A stretch of DNA of 64,000 nucleotides from Stramonita haemastoma (lineage: Eukaryota; Mollusca; Gastropoda; Neogastropoda; Muricidae): assembly GCA_030674155.1 (NCBI GenBank), contig CM060337.1, positions 44,469,671 to 44,533,670 on the forward strand, written 5' to 3'. The position numbers were made by a program, and so were the translations under genes. Of the stretch, positions 28,287-48,074 are shown piece after piece; position 1 is the stretch's first letter; each line of letters starts with the position of its first letter. Under the pieces are notes generated by a model. That model worked only from the letters and a program-made list of their open reading frames with translations. It was not told the origin of the DNA and made no database searches.

Positions 28287-28287
<1 letters not shown>

Positions 28288-28329
28288 TGTCTCTGTGTGT
28301 TTGTGTCTGTGTGCGTGCGTATCTTTTTT

Positions 28330-28865: not shown

Positions 28866-28935
28866 CAGCATGCATTGGGGTAGGGGGTAGCATGCATTGG
28901 GGTAGGGGGTAGCATGCATTGGGGTAGGGGCTGTT
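28866..28935. repeat. 22-bp minisatellite, three copies
   Basis: Three near-identical copies of AGCATGCATTGGGGTAGGGG with two extra bases per unit. Confidence 0.9.
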
Positions 28936-29319
28936 GGTCGGTCAGTCAGCCTGAATGCATGTGGACACAACAGCAGGTAAACACAATGGTACGTAGCTGT
29001 AGACACAGTGGTATGGAGCGTTATTTAAATCATAATTTACCAATCCTACCAGCTTAGGCTGCTATCTGGATTTTTTTAGACAAATTTCATTTCTGCTATC
29101 AGCAGAGTGGTTTGCTTCCTACATTATTATTTTAAACAAGTTCTGTTCAATTTTGAAAAATATTTAACCCAAAATAAAAACAGGAAAATAAATGGTCAAG
29201 TCCAGAATAAACATGAGAAAACTGCTCTTTCCACTGGCCTTCCCCTTTTTTCTTGTATTTCTAGTAACCTAACAGCACTAGATAAGGCTCAGAGGATAAC
29301 AATCCCCCCACTGTATGTC

Positions 29320-30420: not shown

Positions 30421-30815
30421 AAAAAAAACAGATAACCCCAAAGGCTTCTACACATCTCCTGTCAGGACCACCGAACCAATGAGTCAGCGAGGCAAAAAGT
30501 TCTTCTTGTTGTTTTTGTTGTTGTTGTGCGTTCCCCAGCTTAACACTCTAGAGGTCAGCCAGAACATGCCACACTCTGACTCACTCATCCATCCCACCTG
30601 GGAATCACTGCAAGATTGGAAACTGCAACACTGAACAAGAATTTTTGCATGTATGACCGTTTTCTTGCTGTATAGGCAGCCATACTCCTGACTTCAGAGG
30701 ATTTTTTTTATCTCCTTTAAAGGAGAGTACAGGTTGTTATGTTCAGAGCTTGTCATGGCTGAAAAAAATCTCAACACAGCATCTTTTTCCTTTTTCTTAA
30801 ACACACCCTTCCCCC
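30421..30815. other. intergenic, no gene recognised
   Basis: Possibly degraded LINE 3' sequence after 30420. No motif that can be named. Confidence 0.45.
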
Positions 30816-31012
30816 GAATAAAACTATAAATTGAGGTGCTGTGTGCGAATACGAGCAGCAGAATACCTTGCCAACACATTGAAAACCTGTTCCACTTTTC
30901 CAAAGAATAGGCCATTGTTTGCCATGGAAACACATGACAAAATTGACAAAACTCATATACACGAAAAAGTATGTGAGAGCATATTTCACTGTCCTCAACA
31001 ACAAAAGAACCT
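30816..31012 (+). mobile_element. SINE-A, degenerate, core to tail
   Basis: CGAATAAAACTATAAATTGA, GGTGCTGTGTGCGAATACG, ACCTGTTCCACTTTTCC and AATAGGCCATTGTTTGCC follow the SINE-A core with many substitutions, so this is an old copy. Confidence 0.7.
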
Positions 31013-31109
31013 CACCCCTTCCCCCCCCCCCCCCCCCCAAGAAAAACCCCACCCCTTCTCCTTGAATACCTCTCCTATAAAATTGAATGTTATCTTCCTT
31101 CTTCCAAAT

Positions 31110-31110
31110 A

Positions 31111-31177
<67 letters not shown>

Positions 31178-31197
31178 CAAACACACACAGACTCTCA

Positions 31198-31271
<74 letters not shown>

Positions 31272-31334
31272 CACACAGAGACTCACACACACAACAACAC
31301 ACACACACACAACCACACACACACTCATGCGCGT
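31110..31334. repeat. (CA)n microsatellite cluster
   Basis: Several CA tracts broken by CTCTCAAACA, GACTCTCACT, CAAACA and CAACA interruptions. Confidence 0.95.
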
Positions 31335-31336
31335 TT

Positions 31337-31680
31337 AAGGGACGGGATAGTTTGGTGGTTTGAGCTTTGTGCATGCAATCAGCTGACCTGGGTTCAAATC
31401 CTACTCAAGGCAATTTTTTTCCACTTCAGTTAACCTCCGTGCTGACTCCACTCCCCATAAAAGTCCTTCAGACAATACTGCAAACTAAGGTCCTGTGTGC
31501 GAACGCAGGCAGAACATCTTGCACATATTAAGTAAAAACATGTTCAGCTTTTTGAGAGAGTAGGCCATTGTGTGCCAGTGGGAACGGATGACAAATTTGA
31601 CATAACTGCATGCACACAGGGACTTGATGTAAAAAAGCATACAAGTGCTTACTCCATTGTTTTGTAAATAAAAATTTTTG
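31337..31680 (+). mobile_element. SINE-A, full-length but diverged
   Basis: Head GGGACGGGATAGTTTGGTGG (A box degraded) and GGGTTCAAATCC (B box variant near 31390-31401). Core with TCCTTCAGACAATACTGCAA and GTAGGCCATTGTGTGCC, and tail up to TTTGTAAATAAAAAT. Older than the 5688 copy. Confidence 0.85.
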
Positions 31681-32210
31681 AAGACACACATACACGCACA
31701 TCCCTTGCACATAACCCTACTAACAGTGAGACAGAACTTGTCAAACTTAAACAAAAAACTCACTGATAAATATATATATAGATATAGATGCATTCACCTG
31801 ACTGGAAAAGCAAGCCTATCAATCCGTCTTCAATCATGTCATGTTGCTTTAAGCCTGTCTTGCTTCAAGAACAGTTGTAAAAATACCTTTTGGGACCAAA
31901 AACATTCTCCAGCTTTTAACTCTGAAGCAAAACAAAGATTGAGAACCCTGATCAAATTCTGAAAATTATAAACAATCTACAGTTTGAGGTAAAATGACTA
32001 CCTTTTCATCTTTAAAAAAAAAAAATCACAATTTATTGAGTACCCTGCAAGCATGGAGAAGCTTTTCCAGTCAAGAGATTTTCTTAAAATATCAACCAAT
32101 TCCATTCATTTACACCAAAAATCTTAAAAGCATACTGAAAAAGCATCAATAATTATCACCAGCTCCACACAACCAGAGCATTTCTCTCATGATTATTTGA
32201 TCTAAGGAGG
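31681..32210. other. intergenic, no gene recognised
   Basis: AT-rich sequence; open frames are short and without family features. Confidence 0.5.
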
Positions 32211-32211
32211 A

Positions 32212-32425
32212 GGGTGGCAGGATGGTAAAGACGTTTGCCTGCCAACAAGAAAACAGTGAGGTTCAAGGTTTGATTCCCTGCCTTGTCCTTTCTTCTCAGT
32301 TTGATGAAAGAAATCAAACTAAATGGCAAAGTGCTGTTGGGGGGGGGAGAGACTGAAATGAGCAGCTTGGGAACAACAGTACAGGGGCATCATAGAAGAT
32401 GAGGCAGCAAAAAAAATTTTTTTAA
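32212..32425 (+). mobile_element. SINE-C, tRNA-headed, 5' part
   Basis: GGGTGGCAGGATGGTAAAGA with GTTTGCCTGCC gives an A-box-like head, and AGGTTTGATTCC (about 32268-32279) gives a B box. The reverse copy at 54600-54790 has the matching CAGCAGGCAAATATCTGAAC and CTGCCACCCTCC. The 3' part here is uncertain. Confidence 0.6.
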
Positions 32426-32434
32426 GAGCAGCGC

Positions 32435-32500
32435 AACCCTTTTTTTTTTTTCTTTTCCCGTCTGCAACTGGATTTGTTTCCCCGTTATCTCATTCAGTTT
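32435..32500 (-). mobile_element. SINE-B internal fragment
   Basis: TTTTTCTTTTCCCGTCTGCA followed by ACTGGATTTGTTTCCC corresponds to the middle of reverse SINE-B copies (for example 34800-34840). Confidence 0.5.
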
Positions 32501-32729
32501 CAGTGGCTCCAGTAACTTTCAACTTCAGGTTCAAAACCAACACCTCCTAATACTTTCAAGTACCTAACACGGTCCATCTGAGGAAAAAAAAAACAACCAA
32601 CAACATAAAATGACACCATACCTATAATCCTTTCCCTCCTTCAGGCTTCAGGAGTGATGCGGATGATGATGTAGCACGGCTCTGTGTGAAGGTGTTCAGT
32701 TTCTGTACACACCCCTCACCGTTTTCCCA

Positions 32730-32845
32730 GGTTTTACACATTTCACTTTGCGAGTGGTGAAATCACCTTGTTCTACAAAGCACTGGAGGTTTTACATGTT
32801 TCACTTTGTGAGTGGTGAAATCACCTTGTTCTACAAAGCACTGAA
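32730..32845. repeat. 58-bp tandem duplication
   Basis: Two copies (32730-32787 and 32788-32845) of a unit starting GGTTTTACACATTTCACTTT and containing GTGGTGAAATCACC. They differ at only a few positions, so the duplication is recent. The - strand frame across it is open (32763-32948) but has no recognised family. Confidence 0.85.
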
Positions 32846-32950
32846 GATTTTGCACTAGAATGTGTTGGGAACATTCTTGGTGATTGCAGGCGTCCACATC
32901 AATGAAACGTCCTTGGTGATGATGACCCAAAGCGTCCTCCTGATGCACAC

Positions 32951-33200
32951 CTGTCAGTTTCCCCCACTTTCAGCTCCTCTTAGCTGCTAATTATCCCATC
33001 CCAGCCCCGCCCAGCTGGTGCTATTTATAGCAGGAGCTTACCACACTTGGAGTAGGTAAAAGGAAGGAGTGTGCTAAATTTAGCACTCTTCTCTAGGCCC
33101 AACTGAGTGATGTTGGATTTGTGCACTGTGGATGACTTGTGGTGGTGGTGTCCTTGAAAACTGGTGTCGTCTGCAGCTGAGAAGCCTGGTGCTGCACTGT
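32951..33200 (-). other. segmental duplication copy 1 with candidate exon
   Basis: CTGTCAGTTTCCCCCACTTT to about 33140 matches 34597-34690 plus 35108-35172. On the - strand a pyrimidine-rich TTTTTTCTCTCCAG acceptor near 33207-33220 precedes an AAAGAGGACAGTGCAGC block that stays open for about 60 codons (33025-33258). The product, if any, is not recognised. Part of the larger 32.7-45.8 kb locus. Confidence 0.45.
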
Positions 33201-33240
33201 CCTCTTTCTGGAGAGAAAAAAGAAACGTGTTGTCTTGAGG

Positions 33241-33590
33241 GCTGTGGTATGTTTGCATATTAAGGGCTGTGGTATGTTTACATATTAAAGGCTCTGGTAT
33301 GTTTACATATTAAGGGCTGTGGTATGTTTACATATTAAAGGCTCTGGTATGTTTACATATTAAGGGCTGTGGTATGTTTACATATTAAAGGCTCTGGTAT
33401 GTTTACATATTAAGGGCTGTGGTATGTTTACATATTAAGGGCTGTGGTATGTTTACATATTAAAGGCTCTGGTATGTTTACATATTAAGGGCTGTGGTAT
33501 GTTTGCATATTAAGGGCTGTGGTATGTTTGCATATTAAAGGCTGTGGTATGTTTACATATTAAAGGCTGTGGTATATTTGCATATTAAAT
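33241..33590. repeat. 25-bp minisatellite, 14 copies
   Basis: Unit GGGCTGTGGTATGTTTACAT plus ATTAA. A CTGTGG/CTCTGG variant and GTTTACATA/GTTTGCATA variants alternate, giving partial higher-order pairs. Units are contiguous with no unique spacers. Confidence 0.95.
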
Positions 33591-33755
33591 CGTGTTACGC
33601 TTTTCTTAAGAGTAGGCCACTGTGTGCTGGTGGGAACGGATGACAAGATTTACAAAACTGCAAACACATGGGGACTGGATGAAAAATATTTTTTAAAAGC
33701 TCACGAGTGCTTGTTCCATTATCCAGAATATGAAAAAACACACAAACAAATAAAT
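33590..33755 (+). mobile_element. SINE-A 3' half
   Basis: GTAGGCCACTGTGTGCTGG, AAAACTGCAAACACATGGGG and GCTTGTTCCATTATCCAGAA, then an A-rich (AAAT)n tail. Confidence 0.8.
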
Positions 33756-33769
33756 AAATAAATGAATAA

Positions 33770-33900
33770 AATGAATAAACAGCAGGAGCTTACTGCATAA
33801 AAACATGCATGGAAAAAGGGGGGGGGGGGGTGTCTCATCTTAGCACTACCCTATCCCCTCCCCCCCCCCACCTTTGAGTTATGCTGGATTTGTGCGTTAT
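33770..33900. other. segmental duplication copy 3 (partial), SINE target
   Basis: CAGCAGGAGCTTACTGCATA and TGCTGGATTTGTGCGTTAT resemble CAGGAGCTTACCACAC and TGTTGGATTTGTGC in copy 1 (33029-33125). It is cut at 33900 by the reverse SINE-A. Confidence 0.55.
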
Positions 33901-34249
33901 TTATTCATCATTATTTTAATTCCTTTATATCGAGGCTAATGGAATAAGCACTCATGTGCTTTTTTTCATCCAGTCCCCGTGTATATGCAGTTGTGTAAAT
34001 ATTATCTGTTCCCACCGGCACACGATGGCCTACTCTTACGAAAAGCGGAACAGGATTGAACGTGTGCGCAAGATGTTTTGTGTGTGTTCACGCACGGGGC
34101 CTCAGTTTACAGTCTCATCCGAAAGACTTTTGGGGAGAGTGGAGTCAGCACTGATGTTAACTCCAGGGGAAAAATCCCCTCCAATGGGAATCGAACTCGG
34201 GTCGTCAAATTGCGAGCGGTATGTTCTGACCACTACGCTATCCCATCCC
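33901..34249 (-). mobile_element. SINE-A, full-length, with target-site duplication
   Basis: Tail at 33912, complete core, reverse B box GGAATCGAACTC and reverse A-box region CCACTACGCTATCCC, ending CATCCC at about 34249. CGTTAT flanks both sides (33895-33900 and 34250-34255), a 6-bp candidate target-site duplication that supports retroposition into the duplicated segment. Confidence 0.9.
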
Positions 34250-34371
34250 CGTTATGTGAAGGCAGCTGCTTTCCAACTTCGGGGATGCATGCTGGGTATG
34301 TTTCTGTTTTTATAACCCACCACACACTGGCATGAATTATGGAATCTTTAACATGGATCTTCTGTATGTGT

Positions 34372-34377
<6 letters not shown>

Positions 34378-34406
<29 letters not shown>

Positions 34407-34407
34407 C
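34378..34407. repeat. (TA)n microsatellite
   Basis: About 14 TA units after GTGTGTATGTG repeats. Confidence 0.9.
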
Positions 34408-34596
34408 ACGAGTACTGAGTGTGACATATCTTGAATCCATTACATCTTTGTCTCAGGTGTACCTGTTTTCAGAGATGGGGGCATCATGTACATTCTGACT
34501 GCAGTACAGACCACGGTGTTGTAACTCTCAGGTGCTAACAGTTTTTTGTTTTTTTTAAAAGATGCAACCACTTTTGCTGAACTGCGGTAATAACAG

Positions 34597-34938
34597 CTGT
34601 CAGTTTCCCCCACTTTCAGCTCCTCTCAGCTGCAATCCATCCCATCTCAGCCCAGATGGTGCTAATTACAGCACAAACTGACCACACTTTATGTATTTTA
34701 TTTATACCACTTTATGCCACAGCAGATTTCTCTGTGTAAAATTCAGGCTGCTCTCCCCAGGGAGAGCGCGTCGCTACAAGGGCAGAGCCTACCAATCATC
34801 TTTTTTTTTCTTTTTCCTGTGTGCAACTGTATTTGTTTCCCTATCAGAGTGGCTATTTTCTACAGAATTTTGCCAGGGACAATCCTCTTGTTGCCGTGGG
34901 TTCTTTTACGTGCGCTAAATAATGATGCGTAACACACG

Positions 34939-34969
<31 letters not shown>

Positions 34970-35172
34970 TAGTGTCCAGACCATCACTCATGGTCTAATG
35001 GATGGGGGAAAAGTTTGGGGACAAAACAGGATTCGAACCACCACACACTCCGACCAGGACTTTTTGCTTTCTAGTCAGGCGCGCTACCTCTAGACCACCA
35101 ATCCACCCAGGTAAAAGGGTTGCGCTAAATTTAGCACAATTGACTGAGTGATGTTGAATTTGCGTGTTGTGA
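34597..35172 (-). other. segmental duplication copy 2, split by SINE-B
   Basis: 34597-34690 (CTGTCAGTTTCCCCCACTTT through GACCACACTT) and 35108-35172 (AGGTAAAAGGGTTGCGCTAA and GAGTGATGTTGAATTTGCG) together match 32951-33135. The 417 bases between are SINE-B. Confidence 0.75.
34691..35107 (-). mobile_element. SINE-B, near full-length reference copy
   Basis: Read on the - strand: A-box region GGTCTAGAGGTAGCGCG, then CTAGAAAGCAAAAAGTCC, B box GGTTCGAATCC (reverse GGATTCGAACC at 35030-35040, a perfect consensus), CCATGAGTGATGGTC, the core TTTCGGATGAGACGATAAAC then GAGGTCCCGTGTG, GTCCCTGGCAAAATTCTG, GGAGAGCAGCC and AAATCTGCTGTGGCATAAAG with TGGTATAAATAAA at the 3' end. About 415 bases. The spacing between A and B boxes is large for a tRNA, so the head carries an insertion or a long variable arm. 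Confidence 0.88.
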
Positions 35173-35292
35173 AATGTTCAAAATTTGAGGAATTTTAAGA
35201 TATTTCTTTTTACAGGCATTTTTCATGGAAGAAAGATTAATGACAGTGAAACAAGTACGGTACAGCACAGAGAAGAGGAAATCAAACCATAC

Positions 35293-35358
35293 CTGTTCAG
35301 TCCCTGGTGACTTGCCCATAGCAGATTCTTGGCACTGGATTCTGGCTCCACAGCTCTC
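35293..35358 (-). other. candidate exon A (type ACD)
   Basis: On the - strand, TACTGCTTTCAG precedes GAGAGCTGTGGAGCC and the block ends GGGACTGAACAG followed by GTATGG. Its 3' 55 bases align with exon B with few substitutions and one 1-base indel. Confidence 0.4.
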
Positions 35359-36215
35359 CTGAAAGCAGTAAATAACTTCAGTAAGCTAAGAGATTACCAC
35401 AGTTTGATTCAAACACTTTTAGATGTTGTCATGTACTTCAGTAAATTTACAACACACTTACAGCATTGTATTATAATATTCAGAATTATAATACTACAAA
35501 TGAATTTGTTTTGTTCTCGAGATAAATATTTGTATTTACAATTTTAGTGTAGGATTTAAATAGTTTTTTTGTTGTTTTTTTAAATTTTGTGTTGCTTCGT
35601 CACTTTACAAATAAAGACAAAAATCCTCACATGCACAAAACAATCTTCTCACTTTACTATTTAATTTCTTTTTAATTCATTTGATAGAAATTTCTCGGGC
35701 TATTTTTTATAAATAAAATAAACTCATTTGAAAGAAATTTCTCAAACTATTTTTTAAATAAATAAAATAAACTCATTTGAAAGAATTTGATAAAGCTATA
35801 GAGAGGGTAGCACACTGATCTTTCTGCTGACTGACTAATCTTACAATGCACACTTAAACATCCCCACCTACCACAAAAAAACAACAAAACCCCCCAAAAA
35901 AAGATCTCCAATTCCTATTGCAAAGTATACAATTGTTCCACAAAATATTTTTCTCATGGAATGAGGAGGTACAAAGCAAACCATTTTCTTGTTCACCTGG
36001 GGTTTGTCCAGATGCACACCTTAATCCCACTTCCTGCAAACAAATACAATGTAGTACACCACATTTCACACACAAACTCTTAAGCCACAACACGGGTTTT
36101 TTTTTGTTTTATTTATTTTTGCTTTTTTTTCTTCTTTCAAAGTGACCTCTACAACCTGTCACATACTACAGTTTACACTTTGCTTATTTATTGATTTATT
36201 TATTTGTTGGTTTGC
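35359..36215. other. intergenic or intronic, no gene recognised
   Basis: AT-rich. 35686-35790 contains two near copies of AACTCATTTGAAAGAA with ATAAATAAAATAA. No exon-like block was identified. Confidence 0.45.
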
Positions 36216-36528
36216 TTGCTTCTTTATTTATACCACTTTGTGTCACAGCAGATTTTTCTGCGTGAAGTTTGGGCTGCTCTCCCCAGGTAGAGCGCCATCC
36301 ATTTTTTTTCTTCTTTTTCCTGTCTGCATCTGTGTTTGTTTCCCTATCAGAGTGGCTTTTTTCTACAGAATTTTGCCAGGGACAACCCTCTTGTTACCGT
36401 GGGTCCTTTTATGTATGCTAAATAATGATGTTTAGAACACAGGACCTCCGTTTATTGTCTCGTCTGAAAGACTAGCACCAAGACCACCACTCATGGTCTA
36501 ATGGCTGGGGGAAAAGTTTAGACAGAGA
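36216..36528 (-). mobile_element. SINE-B, reverse, head truncated
   Basis: ACCACTTTGTGTCACAGCAG, GGGCTGCTCTCCCCAGGTAG, TTTTGCCAGGGACAACCC, the core complement (GACCTCCGTTTATTGTCTCG) and CACTCATGGTCTAATGGC. It stops before the B box. Confidence 0.88.
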
Positions 36529-36547
36529 AGTGTAAAAAAAACTATAC

Positions 36548-36627
36548 CTGCTCAGTCCCCAGTGACTTGTCCACAGCAGATTTTGGCACTGGATTCTGGT
36601 GCTTGATTCAGTCTTCCCTCATAGTTC
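36548..36627 (-). other. candidate exon B (type ACD)
   Basis: Acceptor GTGTTTTCAG, block beginning GAACTATGAGGGAAGAC, donor GCAG then GTATAG. It is homologous to exon A over CCAGAATCCAGTGCCAA and the last 40 bases. All three frames contain a stop within the block, so it is not coding as it stands. Confidence 0.4.
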
Positions 36628-36721
36628 CTGAAAACACAAACAAGTGATGAGCTACACTAAAAATCTCTTGACTTAAAACATTACATTCATCTCATTGTTT
36701 CATTTTGAAACATTCCAGTGA

Positions 36722-37078
36722 GACTAAACCGAGGCCCCGTATGCAAACACACGCAGAACATCTTGCACACACGTTAACACCCTGTTCCGCCTTTCGGAAG
36801 AGCAGTACATTGTGTGCGGGTAGGAACGGATGATAAAATTATATTTTAAAAAAACAGCATGCACACAGGTGTTGTGTTCAGACACCATCCCTGAGGAAAA
36901 GTCAGGGAGTTGGAGTCCCCAGGGCGGCTCGGGGCTGTGTATATATCTATAAAAAAAAAATAAGAAAGGGTAGGCGCTGCACTTGTGGAGACGCTCTCTC
37001 CCCAGGGACAGCAGCCCAAATTTCAAGCAGAGAAATCTGCTGTGACATAAAGTGGTATAAAATAAATTAAAAATAAAA
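36722..37078 (+). mobile_element. SINE-A-like core fused to SINE-B-like 3' end
   Basis: 36722-36845 has the SINE-A core (GAGGCCCCGTATGC, then GTTCCGCCTTTCGGAAGAGC). 36855-36900 carries the ACACAGGTGTTGTGTTCAGA block. 36970-37070 ends as SINE-B (GGGACAGCAGCCCAAATTTC, AAATCTGCTGTGACATAAAG, TGGTATAAAAT). The same order occurs at 52030-52290, so this is a composite family and not a chance junction. Confidence 0.7.
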
Positions 37079-37384
37079 TAAAATAAAATATAAAAAACCA
37101 GAACTTCAGAATGCGCTTTTCAGACTTTTATTCTTTACTCTCCATGTCATTATTTCTTCATTGCTTTATTTGCTTAAATTTTTAAACCATTTGATAACAT
37201 TTTCAAAGATTAAAATTTACAATTATTTAAACACACTGTAACACATTAACTTCAACTCCCTTAATTACAAGTCTGTTTGGGATTTTTTTTGCCTTTGTCT
37301 TAAATTGAAAAGAATCAGCTTACCAATGTACACAAGAACAATCCGAAATGCATTGAAAGAGATGTTTTGTGACCCGAGCGTTTT

Positions 37385-37640
37385 TTTTGGATGACACTAT
37401 AAACCAGGGTCTCACGTGCAAACGCACGCAGAGCATCTTGCACACAGGTTAAAACCTGTTCCCCTTCTCAGAAGAGTAGGCCACTGTGTACAGGTGGGAA
37501 CGGATGACAAAACTTAAAAAACTGCGTACACAGGGACTGGGTGTAAAAAAGCACACGAGTGCTTATTCCATTATCCTTGGAATAAAAGAATAAATAAATA
37601 AATAAATAGATAAATAAATAAATGATTAAATAAATAAATA
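37385..37640 (+). mobile_element. SINE-A, core to tail
   Basis: GGATGACACTATAAACCAGG, CAAACGCACGCAGAGCATC, GTAGGCCACTGTGTACAGG and a tail ATTATCCTTGGAATAAAAGA followed by (AAAT)n. Confidence 0.85.
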
Positions 37641-37774
37641 ACATTTTGGGTTTTTTTCTTTACTGACATGGAAGAAGACAGTGAAAGCTGCTGTAAGAGC
37701 CTTTTACGTATCAATGAACTAGTGACTAGAAAGACATTTTGGAGCTGAATGGCTGAAGGAAATAATTCCCTCAC

Positions 37775-38034
37775 CTGCATTTTGTCAGAGAGGTTTCCCC
37801 TGAATGCTGGCAGGTGTAGATGTCAGAGAGGTTTCCCCTGAATGCTGGCAGGTGTTGATGTCACAGAAGTTTCCCCTGAATGCTGGCAGGTGTTGATGTC
37901 ACAGAAGTTTCCCCTGAATGCTGGCAGGTGTTGATGTCACAGAAGTTTCCCCTGAATGCTGGCAGGTGTTGACATCAGGGGCAGCAGCTATCTGATGACA
38001 GAATGATTCTATCAAATTACAGTGTTCAAACATT
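37775..38034 (-). other. candidate exon E1 with 38-bp repeat
   Basis: On the - strand: TGTGTCATGTTCAG acceptor, then AATGTTTGAACACTG, a GATAGAATCATTCTG block homologous to E2 and E3, about five copies of a 38-bp unit (37788-37975; TTTCCCCTGAATGCTGGCAG on the + strand) and a donor AAAATGCAG then GTGAGG. The unit length is not a multiple of three, so the reading frame changes from copy to copy. Confidence 0.4.
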
Positions 38035-38057
38035 CTGAACATGACACACAGACCCTT

Positions 38058-38200
38058 TGGAAGACAGACAGACAGAAAATGGCAGACAGACAGAAAATGG
38101 CAGACAGACAGAAAATGGCAGACAGACAGAAAATGGCAGACAGACAGGCAGACACTGACAGACAAGACAGAAAATGACAGACAGACAGACAGACAGAAAT
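38058..38200. repeat. 18-bp and (ACAG)n repeats, unit 1
   Basis: Four copies of AAAATGGCAGACAGACAG, then degenerate GACAGACA. The same GACA-rich tract occurs at the equivalent place in duplicated units 2 (39890-39960) and 3 (40838-40905) and, weakly, at 43268-43330. Confidence 0.85.
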
Positions 38201-38372
38201 GCATACCCAAACAATACAGAGACAGGCAGGCAGAGTGGATGATCGACATAGAGACAAATGAATGATAACAATTCACCGACATGCATACGTACACAATGTC
38301 ACCAACAAAAATAGAACTAAAAGAAAAAAATTAAACACACAAGAATAATACCACCACCAGTTGTGTCCTTAC

Positions 38373-38437
38373 GTTTCCTTAGTGACCGCTAAGGCAGATG
38401 CTAAACTTGACCACTGCTGGTCAGGCTTCCACGACAC
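38373..38437 (-). other. candidate exon F1
   Basis: Acceptor CTGTTTTACCAG, block starting GTGTCGTGGAAGCC, donor GGAAAC then GTAAGG. Its place and flanks match F2 and F3. Confidence 0.35.
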
Positions 38438-38546
38438 CTGGTAAAACAGATAGACATCACTAAATTAGAAGCAGCATAAAAAATTAAAAGCATGGACAAA
38501 GCGTGCTCACCAAAAGAAACGTGAATGTAAAAGCAACTACCACTGG

Positions 38547-38882
38547 TTACAGGAGGACAGGATAGCCTTCTGGTCAGAACATTGCGCTGGCAGTTTGACG
38601 ACCCCAGTTCGATTCCTGTTTGAGAGGATATTTCCTCTGGAGTCAACATCCACTCCTGCCAAAAGTCCTTCAGATGAGACTATAAACCGAGGCCCCATTT
38701 GCAAATACACGCAGAACATCTTGCGCACACATTAAATCCTGTTCCGCTATTTGTAAGAGTAGGCCATCGTGTGCCAGTGTGAACAGATGACAAGATTTAC
38801 AAAAACTGCATACACACGGGGACTTAATGTAAAAATGAACACGAGTGCTTATTCCATTATCCTTGATATAAAAGAATTCTTT
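38547..38882 (+). mobile_element. SINE-A, full-length
   Basis: Head GGACAGGATAGCCTTCTGG with CAGTTCGATTCC, then ATTTCCTCTGGAGTCAAC (one block shortened), full core and an ATTATCCTTGATATAAAAGA tail. Inserted between exons F1 and C of unit 1. Confidence 0.92.
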
Positions 38883-39181
38883 TTTTAAATTTTAAAACAG
38901 GCAGATATATCACCAGTTTATCCAACTACTCATGTGGTCGACCACAGCTTACATAGTATTTGGTCAAACAGGTATACATCACACCTCACACAGCACAGAA
39001 CAACCAACCCTGCCTCAAAATGACCACTGAAAAGAGAGAAATATATGTAAAAGGGATGAACAAAGAATAAAAACAATCCAATGAGAAAATCTAAGCTGAG
39101 TGGAAATCGAAAAAAAGTCAGGTAGGAAATAAAAGGCAAAATCAAAACTGAAAATACAGAAATATAATTATAGAACTGTAC

Positions 39182-39258
39182 CTTGCTGACAGACTGCGGT
39201 TCTTGGTCACTGTCTGTTACATGTACCCTCCTTGCCACTCCACTCCTGCCCCACAGAC
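39182..39258 (-). other. candidate exon C (type ACD)
   Basis: Acceptor GCTGTTTTCAG, block starting GTCTGTGGGGCAGG, donor CAGCAAG then GTACAG. Position in the repeat unit equals exon D. Confidence 0.35.
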
Positions 39259-39419
39259 CTGAAAACAGCAGGTGATCACCAGTTATAGTGACAATTCTGT
39301 TAAGTTCCACTAGCATATTTATAACATTCGTTTAATCATACCACTCTAAGTAGTCAAGTCAGTCATTCAGTGCTTTGATTTGTGTTCTCTAAAAAATTCA
39401 GTGCAATAAATATCCCATA

Positions 39420-39467
<48 letters not shown>

Positions 39468-39469
39468 CA
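39420..39469. repeat. (ATT)n microsatellite
   Basis: About 16 ATT units, in the interval between exon C and block E2. Confidence 0.96.
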
Positions 39470-39585
39470 GACATACTGAACAATCCTATGAAGCTTCACT
39501 AGCATACATATATATATATATTACATTCATTTAATCATACCACTTTAAGTCGTCAAGTTACACATGAAGTCTGTCATTTTCTCAC

Positions 39586-39795
39586 CTGGACTTAGTGGTC
39601 GAATCCTATGGCCTGGCTCCCCTCCATGCAGGCAGCTGTGACACTGTCAGGTCCATGCACCTGGACAGCAGCTCTGTCAACAGACCGATTCTATCACAGG
39701 GCAGGTGTGACACTGTCAGGTCCCAACACCTGGACATCAGCTCTGTCAACAGACCGATTCTATCACAGGTCAGGGAAACATTTCCAACATGAAAT
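39586..39795 (-). other. candidate exon E2 with internal 67-bp duplication
   Basis: Donor TAAGTCCAG then GTGAGA. Inside, two copies of a 67-bp unit (GATAGAATCGGTCTGTTGAC in each) read LLTELMSRCWDLTVSHL and LLTELLSRCMDLTVSQL in one frame, with a TAG about 30 bases before the donor. E3 has LLTELLPRCRHLMAHL in the corresponding frame. No clean acceptor AG at the 5' edge, unlike E1 and E3. Confidence 0.4.
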
Positions 39796-39886
39796 GCAGA
39801 CCTGCAGAAAAACACAGACAGATAAAAAAGGGAGGAAAAAAAATACAAACAAAAACCCAGACTTGGCATCACAGAAAGACAAACAG

Positions 39887-39887
<1 letters not shown>

Positions 39888-39918
<31 letters not shown>

Positions 39919-39924
39919 CTAGTG

Positions 39925-39955
<31 letters not shown>

Positions 39956-39962
39956 GGCAGGC
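39888..39962. repeat. (ACAG)n microsatellite, unit 2
   Basis: Two runs of GACAGACA separated by CACTAGTGAG. It is followed by GGCAGGCAGAGTGAATGA, which matches GGCAGGCAGAGTGGATGA in unit 1. Confidence 0.93.
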
Positions 39963-40070
39963 AGAGTGAATGACTGACATGGACACAATGACATGATAAA
40001 AAAACCAAATGGTATTATATATAATCACTGTCACATATACAAACGTATTATCTGTTTCATTGTCCTTTAC

Positions 40071-40126
40071 TTCCTTTGATGACCAATGCTCGACACAGAA
40101 CTTGATGGTGCTGGACTTGACGAGAG
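40071..40126 (-). other. candidate exon F2
   Basis: Acceptor AAACTCACCAG, block CTCTCGTCAAGTCCAG, donor AAAGGAA then GTAAAG. The upstream GGACATCTGTTTAACA resembles GATGTCTATCTGTTTTACC before F1. Confidence 0.35.
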
Positions 40127-40385
40127 CTGGTGAGTTTTACATTGTTAAACAGATGTCCTCCACAAAAGTAACAACAGCCTAACAGACATAATCAGCAATA
40201 CAAGTCAGCTATACTTAAAAAAAAAAAATCTGATTTCAGACTAAATAGAAATTAAAGGCAAAAATAATTGAATTGGAAAATCTTCAAAGACTGAACAACA
40301 AGCCAAACAAAGAGAGAAAACTGGGAGGGTGTGTGTGTGTGTGGGGGGGGGGGGGGGTAGCTTAATTATACAGAAATATACCTAC

Positions 40386-40459
40386 CTCTCAAGGAGACTG
40401 GAAGCTGTGCTGACAGTTCGGTGACACACACACACTGTCCTCAGCACTGGACTCCAGCG
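40386..40459 (-). other. candidate exon D (type ACD)
   Basis: Acceptor TTTACCGCTTTCAG, block CGCTGGAGTCCAGTGC resembling CCAGAATCCAGTGCC of exons A and B, donor CTTGAGAG then GTAGGT. Confidence 0.35.
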
Positions 40460-40690
40460 CTGAAAGCGGTAAATAAATCATCATCAGTCAGTCTGTCAAT
40501 CCCAAAGTTAAACTTAACAGCACATTAAAAAAAACATACATCACTTAAACTATCAAACACATTGCATTCAGTAACACATTCAGTATACTTCACTTAAAGT
40601 GGCTAAGTTTAACTACTATGTATACACATTACATTTAATAACATACATAACTCGAAAGCGTCTAAGAAATGAAATCTGAAATGTTCTCAC

Positions 40691-40799
40691 CTGCACTCAG
40701 AGGTAGAATCACGCCACCTGGTTCTCCAAACTGCATCAGGTGTGCCATCAGGTGCCGACACCTGGGCAGCAGCTCTGTCAACAGACTCGAGTCTATCGC
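40691..40799 (-). other. candidate exon E3
   Basis: Acceptor TTTCCCTGCCAG, then GCGATAGACTCGAGTCTG, donor TGAGTGCAG then GTGAGA. Open in two frames, one giving LLTELLPRCRHLMAHLMQFG. It is the cleanest member of the E type. Confidence 0.45.
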
Positions 40800-41011
40800 C
40801 TGGCAGGGAAACATGAAATGAAGAACCTCAGAATGATGCAGACAGACAGACGGACAGACAGAAATGCCAACACAGACATCCACAGACAAAACAAGACAGA
40901 ATGGCCGGCCAAATGCATAGCAGATATAAAGACAAAATACATAATCCATACAAACCCATTGGCATACCTATACCAGGTCGCACAGACATTATTACCTGGT
41001 AGTAGTTACAG

Positions 41012-41288
41012 TTGGGGACAGGATAGCTCAGCGGTCAGAGTGCTCGCTTTCCCCAGGTCAAGTTAAGCAGTGCCGAGCATGGTTGCCAGTTGGATGGGTG
41101 ACCGTACAGTCCCCCAGTTCACCCAGCTGTCAATGGGTACCTGCCCTCTTTAGGGTCAGGGAAGGTAAAGCAGTGAGGGAGGAGGAGATGGGCGCCGCCC
41201 TCAACATGCTGGTCCCTAGAGAAGCTGAGGTCTCTGTCGCCTCGCTCCCCTACGACCACACAGGTTATGAGACACCTTTACCTTACCT
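41012..41288 (+). mobile_element. SINE with tRNA-like head and 5S-like segment, copy 2
   Basis: Head GGGGACAGGATAGCTCAGCG with A-box TAGCTCAGCGG (41024-41034). Then, with no B box visible, a 5S-like segment at 41059-41103: AAGTTAAGCAGTGCC, GCATGGTTGCCAG and TTGGATGGGTGACC. Then the body shared with 17390-17535 (AATGGGTACCTGCCCTCTTT, GATGGGCGCCGCCC, AACATGCTGGT, AGAAGCTGAGGTCTCTG). The body ends near TTATGAGACACCTTTACC. Confidence 0.78.
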
Positions 41289-41640
41289 TATTAGTTACAG
41301 TTACTTACTGGCATACCTATACCAGGTCTCAAAGAGACAACTATTACCAGTTTAACCTATGTGGTGGTGTTGGCATGACCACAGCTAGCTGGCTGCTAAG
41401 CCTTGCAGAGTACCTGGGGAAAGAGATGTATGTACTCTATGTTAAAGACAGGACTAAAGAAAAAAAAGTACAACACAACATGCTAATAAAGTAGTCAAAG
41501 GACTGTGCTCACAGGTAAAAGTAACATAACATACATGAAGCCAAGCGCAAAAAAAACCAAAAAACCCATAATAATAAAATAGTCAAACCTTTGTACTTAG
41601 GTTCAAAGGTGGGATACAGCAAAGTGAATTATAAGTAACA
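41289..41640. other. intergenic, no gene recognised
   Basis: Contains a short repeat of the sequence just before the SINE (TTGGCATACCTATACCAGGTC at about 40970 and 41310). It suggests duplication of the insertion site or a second boundary. Confidence 0.45.
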
Positions 41641-41699
41641 ATACATATAGATGATACAGAAATATATAGCCAAGAGTTCTAATAACTAACAATACTAAT

Positions 41700-42860
41700 A
41701 AATGATAAAGTAACATACAACAAAGCGTATTCTAACTAACAATACATACAGGTAAAGTAAAATACAACAAAAGGCACTATGAATAATACACATACACATA
41801 CAGGAAAGTGCATTTTAACTAATGATACATATAAAGTAACATACAGGAAAGTGCATTTTAACTAATGATACATACAGATAAAGTAACATAAAGGAAAGTG
41901 CATTTTAACTAATAATACATATAGATAAGTAACATACAGGAAAAGTGCATTTTAACCAATGATACATATAGATAAAGTAACATACAGGAAAGTGCATTTT
42001 AACTAATAATACATATAGATAAAGTAACATACAGGAAAGTGCATTATAACTAATGATACATATAAAGTAACATACAGGAAAGTGCATTTTAACTAATAAT
42101 ACATATAGATAAAGTAACATACAGGAAAGTGCATTATAACTAATGATACATATAAAGTAACATACAGGAAAGTGCATTATAACTAATAATACATATAAAG
42201 TAACATACAGGAAAGTGCTTTATAAGTAATATTTGTAATAATACATATAAAGTAACATACAGGAAAGTGCATTATAACTAATAATACACATAAAGTAACA
42301 TACAGGAAAGTGCATTATAACTAATAATACATATAGATTAACATACAGGAAAGTGCATTATAACTAATAACACATACAGATAAAGTAACACACAGAAAAG
42401 TGCAGTATAACTAATAATACATATTATAAAGTAACACACAGAAAAGTGCAGTAGAACTAATAATACATATTATAAAGTAACATACAGGAAAGTGTATTAT
42501 AATATACATATAAATAAAGTAACATTCAGTAAAGTACATTATAACTAACAATACAAATTAATGATAATGTAAAATAACAACAAAGTGTATCATAACTCAC
42601 AATACATATAGACAAAAATAAAATACAACAAAAGGCACTAAGAATAATGATACATATAGATAAAGTAGCATACAGTAAAGTCCATTATAACTTACAATAC
42701 AAATAAATGATAAAGTAACATAAATTGTATCATAACTTACAATACAAATAAATGATAAGGTAACAACAAAGTGCATCAAAATTAACAATACAAATAAAGG
42801 ATAAAGTAACATAACAACAAAGTGTATCATAACTCACAATACAAATAAAGGATACATGTA
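41700..42860. repeat. minisatellite, about 35-45 bp unit, about 28 copies
   Basis: The unit combines AAAGTAACATACAGGAAAGT with GCATTATAACTAATAATAC and ATATA. Length varies with short internal deletions. Later copies (after 42540) diverge to AATACAAATAAATGATAAAG. In the - strand sense some frames are open (for example 41905-42177) only because of the repeat. Confidence 0.92.
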
Positions 42861-42861
42861 C

Positions 42862-43090
42862 AAATTACTAACTCGGGCAATATCTCTAAAACAGAGAAAT
42901 ACAGAACTTTTCTTACCTGATTTTCACACAGCCTAGTTATTGGATTCAACTATTTGAGTGACACAGAATTCAAATTACTTTATTATCTCTAAAACAGAGA
43001 AATACATGACTCCTTTTCTTACCTGATTTTCACACAGCCTAGTTATTGGTTTCAACTATCATTTGAGTGACACAGAACTCCTTTCCTCAC
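42862..43090 (-). other. duplicated 110-base segment near exon E4
   Basis: CTTACCTGATTTTCACACAG with CCTAGTTATTGG occurs twice (about 42916 and 43020), each preceded by TATCTCTAAAACAGAGAAAT, which resembles the T1 LINE tail in reverse. On the - strand each gives CAGGTAAG, a strong donor-like site. Confidence 0.5.
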
Positions 43091-43176
43091 CTGGCCCTTA
43101 GTCCAGAACCTCTCTATTCTACTTCATGGTGGTATGGGCGCTGCCAGTGCTGTGTCCTCCTTGTAAGTAGTTGTAT
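43091..43176 (-). other. candidate exon E4
   Basis: Acceptor GGTTGTTAACAG, block ATACAACTACTTACAAGG, donor AGGGCCAG then GTGAGG. It lies where E-type exons lie in units 1-3 but sequence similarity to them is low. Confidence 0.3.
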
Positions 43177-43497
43177 CTGTTAACAACCGGATTTTTCCAC
43201 ATTGTAGCAAAAATTTTCAATATGGAATAAATTCCCCCATCTCCAGAAAAACATATGACAAAAATAAAAGGTAAAAGGCAGACAGAAATGTCAGACAAAA
43301 GACAGACAGGAATTCCAGACTAAAAGACAGAAAAACAAAATGCAATCTTTCAAGGGCATACCAAACACATAAAGAGGGAGAGGCGGCAGAACAAACAAAT
43401 CAAATTAAATACAGTATTTATATAATAAAGATATATATACATGTGAATAGATCAGACAAGGCAGAAAGATAGGAAAAAAAAAAAGATTAATCTGTAC

Positions 43498-43571
43498 CTG
43501 ATGAGTGAAGTGATGAAGAAGGCTTGTGATACTGCCAGACCTGTATGAACCTGTTCAGACCCAGCTGGTAC
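43498..43571 (-). other. candidate exon F3
   Basis: Acceptor TTGTTTTACCAG (as in F1), block GTACCAGCTGGGTCTG, donor CACTCATCAG then GTACAG. One frame is open throughout. Confidence 0.35.
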
Positions 43572-43711
43572 CTGGTAAAACAAATCTACCATCATTCAGA
43601 AAAAAAATCCACATGTATATATATACATGAGTTACTGTCCCTCACAAGCTGCTGGATTTTTTTTTTCAAACCAAGAATGTCCGTGCTGCTGTGAAAGGTT
43701 GAAGACAGCAG

Positions 43712-43757
<46 letters not shown>
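43712..43757. repeat. poly-A tract
   Basis: About 43 A residues, long for a homopolymer. It may be a retroposon tail or assembly-sensitive. Confidence 0.95.
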
Positions 43758-43799
43758 AAACCACCTCAACTGTTTCCTACTGCACTGCTCATGTCCCTC

Positions 43800-43945
43800 T
43801 ATGATGATGATGATGATGATGGTGACAATGGTGATGATGATGGTGATGATAATGACCATCTTGGTCAACAGACTGATTATGATGATGATGATGATGACGA
43901 CCATCTTGGTCAACAGACTGATAACGACGATGATGTTGATACATG
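43800..43945. repeat. (GAT)n with embedded E-type motif
   Basis: Two GATGATGAT arrays, each followed by CATCTTGGTCAACAGACTGA. On the - strand the latter reads ATCAGTCTGTTGACCAAGAT, similar to ATCGGTCTGTTGACAGAGCT in exon E2. A unit of about 57 bases is duplicated. Confidence 0.75.
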
Positions 43946-44700
43946 TTCTCCTTTGATCTCTTGCAAGAACTTTTCCCCATTTGGTTTTGTTTATTTGTTT
44001 GGTTGGGTTTTTTTGTTACTTTTCTTTGGTTGGGAAGTTTTGCACTTGGTGTGCCTGTTTTCGTTTGTATCAGTGGTGGGGGAGATGGTGGTTCACTCTT
44101 TTAGTTTATGTTTTCCTTTTACTGCTGAGCAGATGTGTCCCACTTCTTGGCAGATTTTTTTTTTTTTTTTGATGGGTAACTGGTTATATTTCATTTCATT
44201 TTATTTTGATCATTTCAGTTTATGTGATACTGGTTTTTGGTTTTGTTTATTATGATTTTTTTTTTTTCAGTTGTTTCTTTTAGTTTATCTCGCTTTTATA
44301 GTTTCATCATCTGCAAAGCACCAGTCCAGTTGTTCTCACATCATCATTCCAAACTTACCACACAACTACTTACACAAATAATGAAGATGACATGGCGCTT
44401 TAACCCTCTTAGTCCCAAACCAGGATTTTTTACTTTTTACACTTTTGTTTGTTTGTCACTTTTTGTTTCATTTGCTTTATTTTGCGTACATGTTCTTTTT
44501 TGTTGTGTATAGTTTGGCTTCTTGCCCGTAAGCTTCATTTTGTTTCGTACTTTCAGTTTTGTTTCCCTTTTTTTAAACAGTTTATTGTTTAATCCTCTTT
44601 TTGTTTATGCTTTTTTTTGGTTTAATCTTTATTCTTTTTTCTGTTATTTTGTGTTTTGCAATGCAGTGGAACTGCCTTGCACAGCAGCACTCTGACCATC
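43946..44700. other. T-rich interval, no gene recognised
   Basis: T-rich with many TTTTG runs. On the - strand a possible acceptor GCTGGTTTTCAG sits at about 44729, but no exon could be closed convincingly. Confidence 0.4.
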
Positions 44701-44811
44701 AGTCTGTAGCTCTGTCTTGAAAGATCTGAAAACCAGCAATTTTATGCATCAACTGTACAAGCACTGAATCAAAAATTAATATCATACTTCTACAGGCCAA
44801 GACCAGCATAC

Positions 44812-44894
44812 CTTCTGGTCCCAGACACCAAGTAATGAGGCCCTTTGAATCTTTGTTGAACCACTTATTTTACAATCCCTTCTCAAGAGTAATC
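44812..44894 (-). other. candidate exon G
   Basis: Acceptor TTTCTTTCTTAG, block GATTACTCTTGAGAAGGG, donor GACCAGAAG then GTATGC. One frame (LLLRRDCKISGSTKIQRASL) is open through the block. Not obviously repeated elsewhere. Confidence 0.35.
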
Positions 44895-45766
44895 CTAAGA
44901 AAGAAATACATACACTGATACAGTGAAGTTGTCCTATAGTCTGCAGGATTTGTAGTGCTGGCATTTTCATCCTTGTGTCCTTCGTGACTAGGTTCATCAC
45001 AGCCAGCCAGTATCTGTTAACAGACATAAACATGTGTGTCATAATCATACATGTAAAAGCAAAAATGTGTGTGTTCATGTGCATGCGCGCTTGTGTGTAT
45101 GTGTGGTTGCCTGTTGGAGTTTGCATACTGCACATCTTGCCTGCAAGTAAAAACTTATTTCAGCCTTTGAGAATACCAATAGGCATATTGCACATGTAGG
45201 AACCGATTACAAAATTCCAAAACACATCCACACTAAGGTTGCCTTTAGCAATCCTCTCTGCAATCGGATTACAGTTGCAATCAGAGTAGGGCCTACAGTT
45301 ATCTGAAATTGTCAATGGTAGGCAAACAGCCCCATACGAAAAATCAAAGTGTCACCATTGTCGAGACCTGAGCTGGGAGCTCTACCTGAGGAACGAAAAC
45401 ATTTTCCAATCATTTAACGCTAAAAATAGAACTGTAACTCGCCGATAGTAAAAGGACACGTTAAAACAAAGCCTGAGATTTGTAAAATGCAGCTTGTAGA
45501 TCATACTTAAGAGTTATAGCTAACCTGGAAATCAAATGATAATGCTTTGTTCCACTGTCACTGTGAATGTGACCATGCAGTTTACCTCTTCCGTCTGTGA
45601 AAAATGCAATGGATAATAATTATTACCTTGCAACAGTCTGTGTGCAGACGACCAGTCGTGCGATCAACACGATATATTCGTAGGGGAACTTAAAAACTGC
45701 AGACTGTAACCACTAAACATCACAAAATATTAAATTCTTCCATCAGCAATTCAACATGGAACTCAC

Positions 45767-45810
45767 CTGCAAAGAACGCGCCCTGTGACGTGGGTAAAGA
45801 GGGACAACTC
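45767..45810 (-). other. possible first exon and donor of the minus-strand locus
   Basis: On the - strand, ACGTCACAGGGCGCGTTC runs into TTTGCAG then GTGAGT, a perfect donor at about 45766. The local CpG content is higher than around it, which would fit a 5' exon. A transcription start cannot be seen. Confidence 0.25.
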
Positions 45811-45844
45811 TGCATGTCCCTTCATATTTCCCCCATAGCCTATT

Positions 45845-46220
45845 CACTTTTTTTCTTTTATCTTTTTTTTTTTTTTTTTTTGTGGGGGGGGGGGGGGGGG
45901 GTTGTTTTTGTCAAATCAAGTATTGCTGTTAACTCCAAGTTTTCAAGTTTTCTGCTAAATGGGTCAACATTTTTTAAATCAAAATTTATTTGAAACTGAA
46001 AGTGAACACAATCGTTTCTCCCCCCCCCCCTCCCCCCAAAAAAAAAAAAAATCAAAAAGAAAAAGAAATGTATGCGAGAGGGGAGGTGAACATGGGTAGA
46101 AAGGAAAATAAAAGAAGCACAAAGGGTTGTAAAGTGGGATGAGGGAGAGGGGGGAGGGGGTGGTGGCACGGAGAAAGGAGGTGGGATCGTGCTGTATAGA
46201 CCTTGCTCCCTCCATAGACC
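45845..46220. other. homopolymer-rich interval
   Basis: Poly-T at 45866-45881, poly-G at 45883-45901, poly-C near 46020-46036, poly-A at 46039-46051 and G/A-rich sequence to 46170. No gene seen. Confidence 0.6.
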
Positions 46221-46509: not shown

Positions 46510-48074
46510 TTAAAAACAAAACAGAAAATTAAAATGAAAACGCCGTACAATCTGAAGAAATTGGTGGATGTTCAGTGACAGGGTGGTGGATGGGTGCCAT
46601 ATAGTCCACAGTAGACTGCTTCTTTTCTGTCCCTTCTCCTGTGAGTGATACCCACCCTCCCCATCCATGGACAAGTTGATTTCCATTTGTGGCCTGGAAT
46701 CGGGGGGGGGGGGGGGGGGGGGATCCACCAAAAATCAGCAAGTTGAGCTTTGTAGACTGCCTCTATGTTTGAGAAATGAGTTTCCACAACATGCAACTTA
46801 GGTTCTGCCTTTACTTTTGCAAAGCATGGAGGAACATCATGTGGCTCATACTGCACTGAGCATTGGCGGTCCTGATAATGAGGAGAGGTTCTGTCTGAGT
46901 CGAAAAGTGTCGGGCATTGTGTCCCCATTAACCTCTTGAGTGACAATGCCATGAGTGGAGTGGGTGGTGTTGGCTCCAGATGGAGTTTCTTCGTTCAGGT
47001 CAAAGTTATCCCAGCAAAAATGGATAACCTTGTTCTCTCTCAAACTCACTGTTGAAGGAAGAAGACTTGGGCACAGAAGTACAGAATTGGCCATAACAGT
47101 CTCAAGTCGCACAATGGTTTTGTATCCAGCAACATGACCAAACCTATTCAACAGACTTATAATTTCAGAGCTGCCAGTTACATGTCTGACAGACATTCCA
47201 AGCAAAACATGTGTAAGCATTTTCCACTTCCCTCCTGTCACAGATTAGCATATGTCCTGGGCAATTGAGGATGTTAATCTGGTGGTTTTGGGTTGCTCCA
47301 TAGAACTACTCTTTCCAGATAGCAGTGTTTTTAGAAAGTCGGTGAGGATATCTGGAGGTTTAACAGTATCAGACTGAAGAAATTCTGCAGAGGGAGGCCA
47401 TGGCATATCAGGTGTTGCCCTGAAAGCATCCATAATGTATCGGCGAAGAACATATGCAAATTCCTCAAGACGTCTTTCTTCTGAAGCTGCTGACACAAAT
47501 GCTGTTTCAACTGCCTGACCCCGGGCAAGTTCATCACAATAAACAAGATCACTACGGTGGTTCGGAGCCCAGAATTTAATTCTGAAGCCACAATGTTTCA
47601 TTATTTTTTCTTTCAGTTTGTAAGTCTTGTATCCTAGGTTGTAGAAGTCAGGAGAATGTTGTTGCATGTATTCACAGTACTTATCACCTAGTATGGTCAT
47701 TCTCTCCACCTGTGAACCTCTGATTATTGCATTTTCATCATACTCGCATATGTACTCAAATGCCCTCTCGTGTGCCTGTAGCCCCTCTGTAGTTTCCTGG
47801 TCTGTTGATGTTTCAGCATGCCTGTCTTCACATCTCAGATAGTCTTTTCTACAACCCTCGTGATAGTGAGCTTCACGTACTACAAGATCTGTATCTTGAT
47901 AATGAGTGAAAGTGTCATCTTGTTTAGTTTTGGCTGCATCTTGCATAGACTGTTCTGCTGTCTTGGTGACACATTTTACAAGTTTTCCAAAACATGGAAC
48001 CCCTTTTGAAACTTTCTTTTTGAATTTCTTCTGACTGAGGTTGTTTGTTTTTGTTTTTGTTTGTTTGTTTGCTC

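Follow-up and report, generated by a model that had tools for sequence, protein, structure and literature searches.

Genes can grow by tandem exon duplication, in which exons and their flanking introns are repeated head to tail, and internal repeats are also found in XIST, a functional long non-coding RNA produced by a single gene. Rye carries a transposon-like gene family, Revolver, which is dispersed over all seven of its chromosomes (PMC2851119). Revolver is about 3 kb long and transcribed; it has terminal inverted repeats, an exon-intron structure and a reading frame of 139 residues, varies in structure near its first exon and matched no known transposon class. The present analysis deals with a minus-strand array of exon-like blocks in the genome of the muricid gastropod Stramonita haemastoma, located in a 64,000-nucleotide stretch of contig CM060337.1 hereafter called the window. 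A preliminary description, made from the letters of this stretch, had presented the array as one local locus of serially duplicated blocks. Comparison with the whole genome leads us to consider, with moderate confidence, that the window holds a copy, probably decayed, of a dispersed, very long, intron-retaining and apparently non-coding multi-exon repeat family.

An exon-block array shared by dispersed copies

The genome to which the window belongs (2.17 Gb, 9373 contigs) was searched with several parts of the array. The 26-base core of the block named A, with up to two mismatches allowed, was retrieved at 103 places (51 forward, 52 reverse; control 0), thus displaying the many dispersed copies characteristic of mobile elements, and the 100 places listed group into 75 loci on 29 contigs. 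At least 49 matches were obtained with the block E2 (40 scored of 385 candidates), at least 40 with a query from the 5′ part of the array (40 scored of 100 candidates) and at least 40 with block A (40 scored of 613 candidates). The listed matches of the four queries merge into at least 116 same-strand clusters on 32 contigs, all these counts being lower bounds drawn from the best 40 scored matches per query or from the first 100 places. Neighbouring matches keep the 5′-E2-A-3′ order and strand in all six query pairs tested: A is found downstream of E2 in 22 of the 40 E2 matches, upstream only in none and on the opposite strand in none, and 6 of the 40 matches of the 5′ query are followed by a 3′ match at 8.6-18.3 kb.

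Twenty loci near the best E2 matches align to the window through exons and introns. Seven of them are close to the window (L009, L011-L014, L016 and L017; subfamily I) and the other 13 are more distant (subfamily II). The close copy L009 (contig C22, 44434500-44444400) is inverted relative to the window, which it precedes by 25-30 kb, and its match reaches 85-90% over stretches of 2-5 kb. The copies vary by substitutions, by insertions and deletions (indels), by how many 38-bp repeats, 69-bp repeats and A blocks they contain, and by the repeats inserted into them. No removal of introns, as in processed (retro)copies, was observed, the copies aligning across introns. The block array is thus shared by dispersed copies and is not a local event. 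Since its order recurs in most of the copies fetched, it is older than their spread and, as these copies retain introns, they were not made from spliced RNA.

Block classes, module order and splice-type borders

The features considered below are listed in the RNA direction, preceded by the overall extent of homology.

27759-46196, minus strand: homology to other copies, with gaps and later insertions
45767-45812, minus strand: most 5′ exon-like block, donor score 12.9, upstream border as placed not a canonical acceptor
45640-45726, minus strand: conserved 5′ block 2, alignment ending TGTTGCAAG/GTAATA, borders approximate and the listed ones not canonical
44914-45013, minus strand: exon-like block X45.0, moderate acceptor, weak donor, conserved in copies
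44812-44894, minus strand: exon-like block X44.9, acceptor score 9.1, donor 8.2, conserved in copies
43498-43571, minus strand: F3, class F, from profiles
43091-43176, minus strand: E4, class E, weak acceptor (2.0), strong donor (12.3)
42877-43080 (42.88-43.08 kb), minus strand: tandem pair G1/G2, 87/96 identical, donors at 42916 and 43022
41360-41444, minus strand: weak class F hit (E 8.3e-4) in the interval from E4 to E3, similar hits in copies
40691-40799, minus strand: E3, class E, acceptor 11.2, donor 11.4
40386-40459, minus strand: C2, class C, from profiles and splice scores
40071-40126, minus strand: F2, class F, weak acceptor (-1.0) and weak donor (3.1)
39586-39801, minus strand: E2, class E, containing a 69-bp tandem repeat at 39631-39774
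39182-39258, minus strand: C1, class C, from profiles and splice scores
38940-38983, minus strand: additional F-like stretch (E 3e-3)
38373-38437, minus strand: F1, class F, donor of the window not retained in distant copies
37775-38034, minus strand: E1, class E, containing a 38-bp tandem repeat at 37783-37972
36548-36627, minus strand: block B, 3′ part near-identical to A
35293-35358, minus strand: block A, weak relative of class C, its 26-base core multicopy in the genome

Profiles built from the other genomic copies sort the blocks into three minus-strand classes, E (E1-E4), F (F1-F3) and C (C1 and C2, with A and B weakly attached). That exon-like minus-strand blocks were serially duplicated, as proposed in the preliminary description, was confirmed by these profiles as well as by self-BLAST and shuffling. 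In the comparison of 32.0-46.5 kb with itself the blocks do prove related, with strong matches between A and B (35267-35345 and 36522-36599, 86% identity, E 2e-19), whose kinship had already been claimed, and between E2 and E3 (39513-39705 and 40617-40807, 72%, E 9e-18). The scores of A-B, E1-E2, E1-E3 and E2-E3 were reached by none of 500 shuffles; among the window blocks alone, no F-F, C1-C2 or E4-E pair was found at 15/500 or fewer, a level that two cross-class pairs did attain (A-F3, 13; F2-E4, 12). Leave-one-out profiles of the window recovered A, B, E1, E2 and E3 well, and C1, C2, F1 and F2 marginally, chiefly with flanks; F3 ranked 2-3 (E 0.065 and 0.2), E4 ranked 4 at best, and C1 and C2 missed each other without flanks, except C2 at E 0.072.

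The enlarged profiles, of 7-21 rows from genomic copies and the window, strengthen most of the weak links. They are not clean, since distant-copy B rows sit on A and a few row assignments are wrong, as for L017 in E4. In the window, the F1 profile reached F2 (3.6e-12) and F3 (2.2e-3), the latter scoring 2.9e-6 in copies, C1 reached C2 at 2.4e-6 in the window and at 5.7e-16 in copies, and A and B found each other; the F2 and F3 profiles did not find one another. E4 had been taken as a weak member of class E, which is borne out by the E1 profile, reaching E2, E3 and E4 (the last at 3.5e-5), but not by its own profile, which reached E1 in 3 loci and neither E2 nor E3. A relationship of A and B with class C is only weakly seen (9.8e-4 for C1 to A, in 4 loci, and 0.045 for C2 to A, in the window). 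Over the 20 loci and the window, 308 non-overlapping profile hits were on the sense strand, many of them a profile recovering its own rows, and none on the opposite strand; 30 shuffled regions gave no hit at E 0.005 and, at E 0.1, a single plus-strand hit appeared in the window (C2, 0.052).

The recurrence of three block types was thus rightly recognised, but their order, initially given as E, F, C/D along the coordinates, is F-E-C in the RNA direction, the window reading F-E-F-E-C-F-E-C-F-E-C-C. Four F-E-C modules can be made out, of which some lack a block, and a partial fifth is present in some copies. In the 9.9 kb pieces around the best E2 matches (n=20), at least two complete triplets were found in 16/20 loci and at least one in 19/20; a manual count gave three in L010, L020, L023, L024, L025 and L028. 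L020, L023 and L025 have four triplets with single blocks absent, and an extra E-C is present in L018, L023 and L025. At least 6 of 15 blocks stand in window order in 18 of the 20 fetched loci, and every block found does so in 11. A C block preceding E3 in the RNA direction is present in 8/13 subfamily II loci and in 0/7 of subfamily I, and is absent from the window. The A block occurs 2-3 times per locus, 0.6-2.1 kb apart, in 22/75 loci, and the number of tandem repeats within the E blocks (38 bases in E1, 69 bases in E2) varies between copies. Between E4 and E3 the window also carries an array of minisatellite repeats (41.8-42.7 kb).

Splice sites were scored with matrices of consensus values. 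GT was found on the donor side of all 11 blocks described earlier, and the donors of E1, E2, E3, E4 and the most 5′ block (11.4-12.9) are among the top of the 922 minus-strand GT sites of 34.0-46.5 kb, that of 45767-45812 being the highest. Acceptor scores are 8.7-11.2 at A, B, F1, C1, C2 and E3, all within the top 21 of 677, and 6.6-6.9 at E1 and F3. The AG/GT borders of the preliminary description therefore stand for the donors and most acceptors, but not for the acceptors of F2 (-1.0) and E4 (2.0), nor for the E2 border placed at 39795, which is not preceded by AG, a strong acceptor being found at 39801. Concerning their frequency, strict acceptor-donor pairs (acceptor 8, donor 7; 34.0-46.5 kb) are commoner on the minus strand (23 vs 5 on the plus strand), but acceptors alone are not at lower thresholds (51 vs 64 at 6; 37 vs 41 at 7).

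These borders bear on the possibility that the array is neutral repeat DNA giving no transcript, in which a segment would have been duplicated locally and then copied genome-wide, the AG/GT borders being inherited chance matches. The imbalance of the strict pairs speaks against it, as does the retention of AG at acceptors (87/114 vs a background of 0.566 for other AG of the same alignments, p=0.022; permutation over the 12 donors and 13 acceptors having at least 3 aligned copies, 3 of the 32 border sites, non-canonical as placed, being left out of the sums). Moreover, A and B are more alike in the exon (0.904) than in the next intron (0.808), and subfamily II retains strong donor sites at A (5/6), E2 (13/13), C2 (8/9), E3 (8/8), E4 (6/6) and X44.9 (9/10) and strong acceptor sites at A (6/6), F1 (9/11) and C2 (8/9), a retention that common ancestry alone partly explains.

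Several observations nevertheless weigh against our reading and are as expected of such neutral DNA. The retention of GT at donors is not significant (80/109 vs 0.591, p=0.083), and in subfamily II strong donors are rare at F1 (0/11), C1 (1/12), F2 (1/9) and X45.0 (2/10), as are strong acceptors at E1 (0/6), F2 (0/9), E3 (1/8) and E4 (0/6). Exon identity in this subfamily, with tandem repeats and dispersed repeats masked from a hand-made list, is 0.834 (0.817 without E2) vs 0.782 for other sequence, a small difference in which the conservation of E2 is biased, the copies having been chosen by E2 similarity. The exon matched fraction without E2 was reached by 177/982 circular shifts in subfamily II and by 906/982 in subfamily I; identity between E2 and E3 is equal in the exon (0.829) and in the next intron (0.824). 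Purifying selection on the exons was accordingly not demonstrated by the identity or matched-fraction comparisons. It may be added that none of the 20 copies has four complete F-E-C triplets. Weighing both sides, we consider an origin as untranscribed neutral DNA unlikely and an ancestral splicing of the blocks plausible, most of their borders being fair-to-high AG/GT sites kept in the copies somewhat above background.

Coding capacity, extent and spread of the repeat unit

Eleven blocks were aligned across copies, dropping rows that covered 80% or less of the columns and ignoring inserted columns (the E3 alignment consisting of 10 chosen rows). In these alignments, no frame is both stop-free in all copies and below 1 in its ratio of nonsynonymous to synonymous differences (pN/pS). 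The sole frame lacking a stop in any row, frame 1 of E3, has a pN/pS of 1.40, and for 7/11 blocks the frame of lowest pN/pS is interrupted by stops in most rows. Net frameshifts relative to the reference row affect 2 to 12 rows of each block, and only 5/56 indels are divisible by 3 in the exons, as compared with 18/87 in the flanks. Among the 364 open reading frames (ORFs) of the window with at least 30 residues, those open in most copies belong either to dispersed repeats or to the blocks E2 and F2, and occur on both strands (plus strand, E2 18/21 and F2 11/13; minus strand, E2 12/21 and 12/20). Searches with the joined block peptides retrieved neither a protein relative (E up to 1) nor a Pfam match, and a search of the PDB with the three minus frames of 31.5-46.5 kb returned nothing; one PDB match, to an antibody heavy chain (E 0.15), was judged not meaningful. 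Four window ORFs outside 31.5-46.5 kb were also searched during this quest for a conserved protein. Rfam gave no window match above the gathering score, the 14 hits obtained within 33.0-46.3 kb at E up to 1 all falling below it, and a tRNA scan of the window retrieved nothing above threshold. A frame conserved across copies, as expected of a protein-coding family, was thus not found and a conserved coding function is not supported. The stops, the pN/pS values and the frame-breaking indels support the earlier preference for a non-coding or decaying nature over a conserved protein; the array may represent either a non-coding RNA that is spliced or a gene family in decay.

The latter could correspond to an ancestral protein-coding gene with a domain encoded by exons F, E and C in tandem, of which nearly all copies, including that of the window, would be pseudogenes and an intact parent may exist. 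The lengths of the blocks fit such an origin, being all 2 modulo 3 for F (74, 65 and 56) and for C1, C2 and B (77, 74 and 80), with A at 66, and an ATG was noticed by eye shortly before the first donor in 13 subfamily II rows. Frames with few stops also exist in block 2 (frame 0, stops in 2/19 rows, pN/pS 0.73), A (frame 1, 1/13, 0.66), X45.0 (frame 1, 1/14, 0.66), C2 (frame 2, 2/11, 0.69) and E3 (frame 0, 1/10, 0.89). The best exon-skipping chain of window blocks, 786 nt long, was reached by 16/500 shuffles, but these 262 codons enter ~32946-33130, a segment which is absent from L050 and L051 with its flanks joined there and has hence been inserted into the window copy. For the same reason we dropped an ORF extending from block A to a “terminal exon” at ~33.2-33.0 kb. 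Given, in addition, the frameshifts in every block, the scarcity of indels divisible by 3, the position of the lowest pN/pS in stop-rich frames and the lack of protein relatives described above, we find a protein-coding ancestry improbable.

The reading of the window as holding a copy of a dispersed non-coding family raises the question of the limits of the repeat unit. Homology extends up to 46196 in L029-L032 and down at least to 27759 in L048/L049; the matches of L050 extend to 27208 and may be due to a dispersed repeat there. Three regions on other contigs are alike for ~370-670 bases past the last query, which indicates that the unit is longer still, and the 5′ homology stops at differing points in different groups of copies. 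Sharp ends at positions 35202 and 45814 of the window were dropped as copies continue beyond both; likewise, a 3′ end at position 288 of the L048 query was abandoned because the common sequence continues in 14 small regions and in L049, and an end at ~240 of the L049 query proved to be a break within the query copy. Neither ends nor terminal repeats nor target-site duplications were found for the unit, so that a mobile element is not proved, which counts against our reading. Pfam gave no match in 31.5-46.5 kb read in all six frames (E 0.1), in 27.8-31.5 kb read in the minus frames or in the frames tried of L047, L031, L069 and L071, these scans stopping short of the unit ends. Another unfavourable point is the presence near the unit, in L049 and L050, of reverse-transcriptase or RNase-H-like ORFs noticed by eye; they look like insertions, part of the L049 stretch matching three other places that hold no part of the unit.

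Elements that carry no enzyme of their own are known as non-autonomous. We infer that the F-E-C modules arose by tandem duplication of one segment, and that the array would then have become part of a very long unit, which would have reached many places, introns included, before decaying. The blocks would formerly have been exons of a minus-strand transcript. The unit could have moved as a mobile element or been copied segmentally, with proteins provided from elsewhere as none of its own was found, and a mobile element devoid of its own enzyme seems to fit best. In a more specific and quite doubtful version, the family would represent a mobile selfish non-coding RNA gene, that is, a very long element propagated as DNA, whose sole product would be a spliced RNA made of a repeated three-exon module with an exon number variable between copies. 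A single unique locus, as initially assumed, is ruled out by the multiple genome matches and the 103 places of the A core, the window holding one copy among many that share the array. Overall, the preliminary interpretation holds in part: the duplication, the borders and the non-coding or decaying nature were recognised, but the dispersed family was not foreseen.

Other repeats were observed in and around the array. A SINE-like (short interspersed element) dispersed repeat is present in both orientations (33581-34243, 36719-36869, 37390-37591 and 38560-38878), together with a second dispersed SINE-like repeat (34697-35016, 36223-36519 and 36951-37067). The segments 32946-33130 and 34594-34689 are copies of another repeat, and the repeat at 41003-41290 has tRNA-like and 5S-rRNA-like parts by eye only, with no Rfam match at either threshold. 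Minisatellites occupy 33238-33588 (25-base, also in L050 and L051) and 29418-30029 (36-base, also in L050). Upstream of the array, 46572-47946 on the minus strand displays fragments of a protein gene, transposon-like or multicopy, without Pfam domain; they include a 233-residue ORF (47245-47946) that matches a hypothetical protein of Elysia crispata at 48% and another record at 60%. A reverse transcriptase stretch (RVT_1) of a retroelement lies at 22915-23712 on the minus strand and seems broken, its match lengthening when stops are read as X.

Comparison with known systems

No description of this snail repeat family was met in our literature search, which is not proof of its absence, and to our knowledge few long exon-intron repeats coding for nothing have been described. 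If the exons are used, the family would offer, within one genome, dozens of natural versions of such a tandem array, varied in make-up, among which exon gain, splice-site decay and RNA use could be directly compared. If they are not, it constitutes a warning that splice-like exon arrays can be mistaken for genes in repeat-rich genomes.

As in tandem exon duplication, the snail blocks and their introns are arranged head to tail and in order, but the three-block module has no known protein and the array itself is dispersed. The likeness with XIST lies in repeats within exon-like blocks and in the lack of a conserved frame, whereas the snail repeat is a dispersed family with a putative transcript. 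Revolver is the nearest published likeness met, sharing with the snail family its dispersal, an exon-intron layout, variation in structure near the first exon and the lack of a match to a known transposon class. The snail unit, whose transcript is putative, differs from it by its far greater length, its array of exon-like blocks and the lack of any ends or reading frame found. It is thus ordinary as a repeat and unusual in its architecture.

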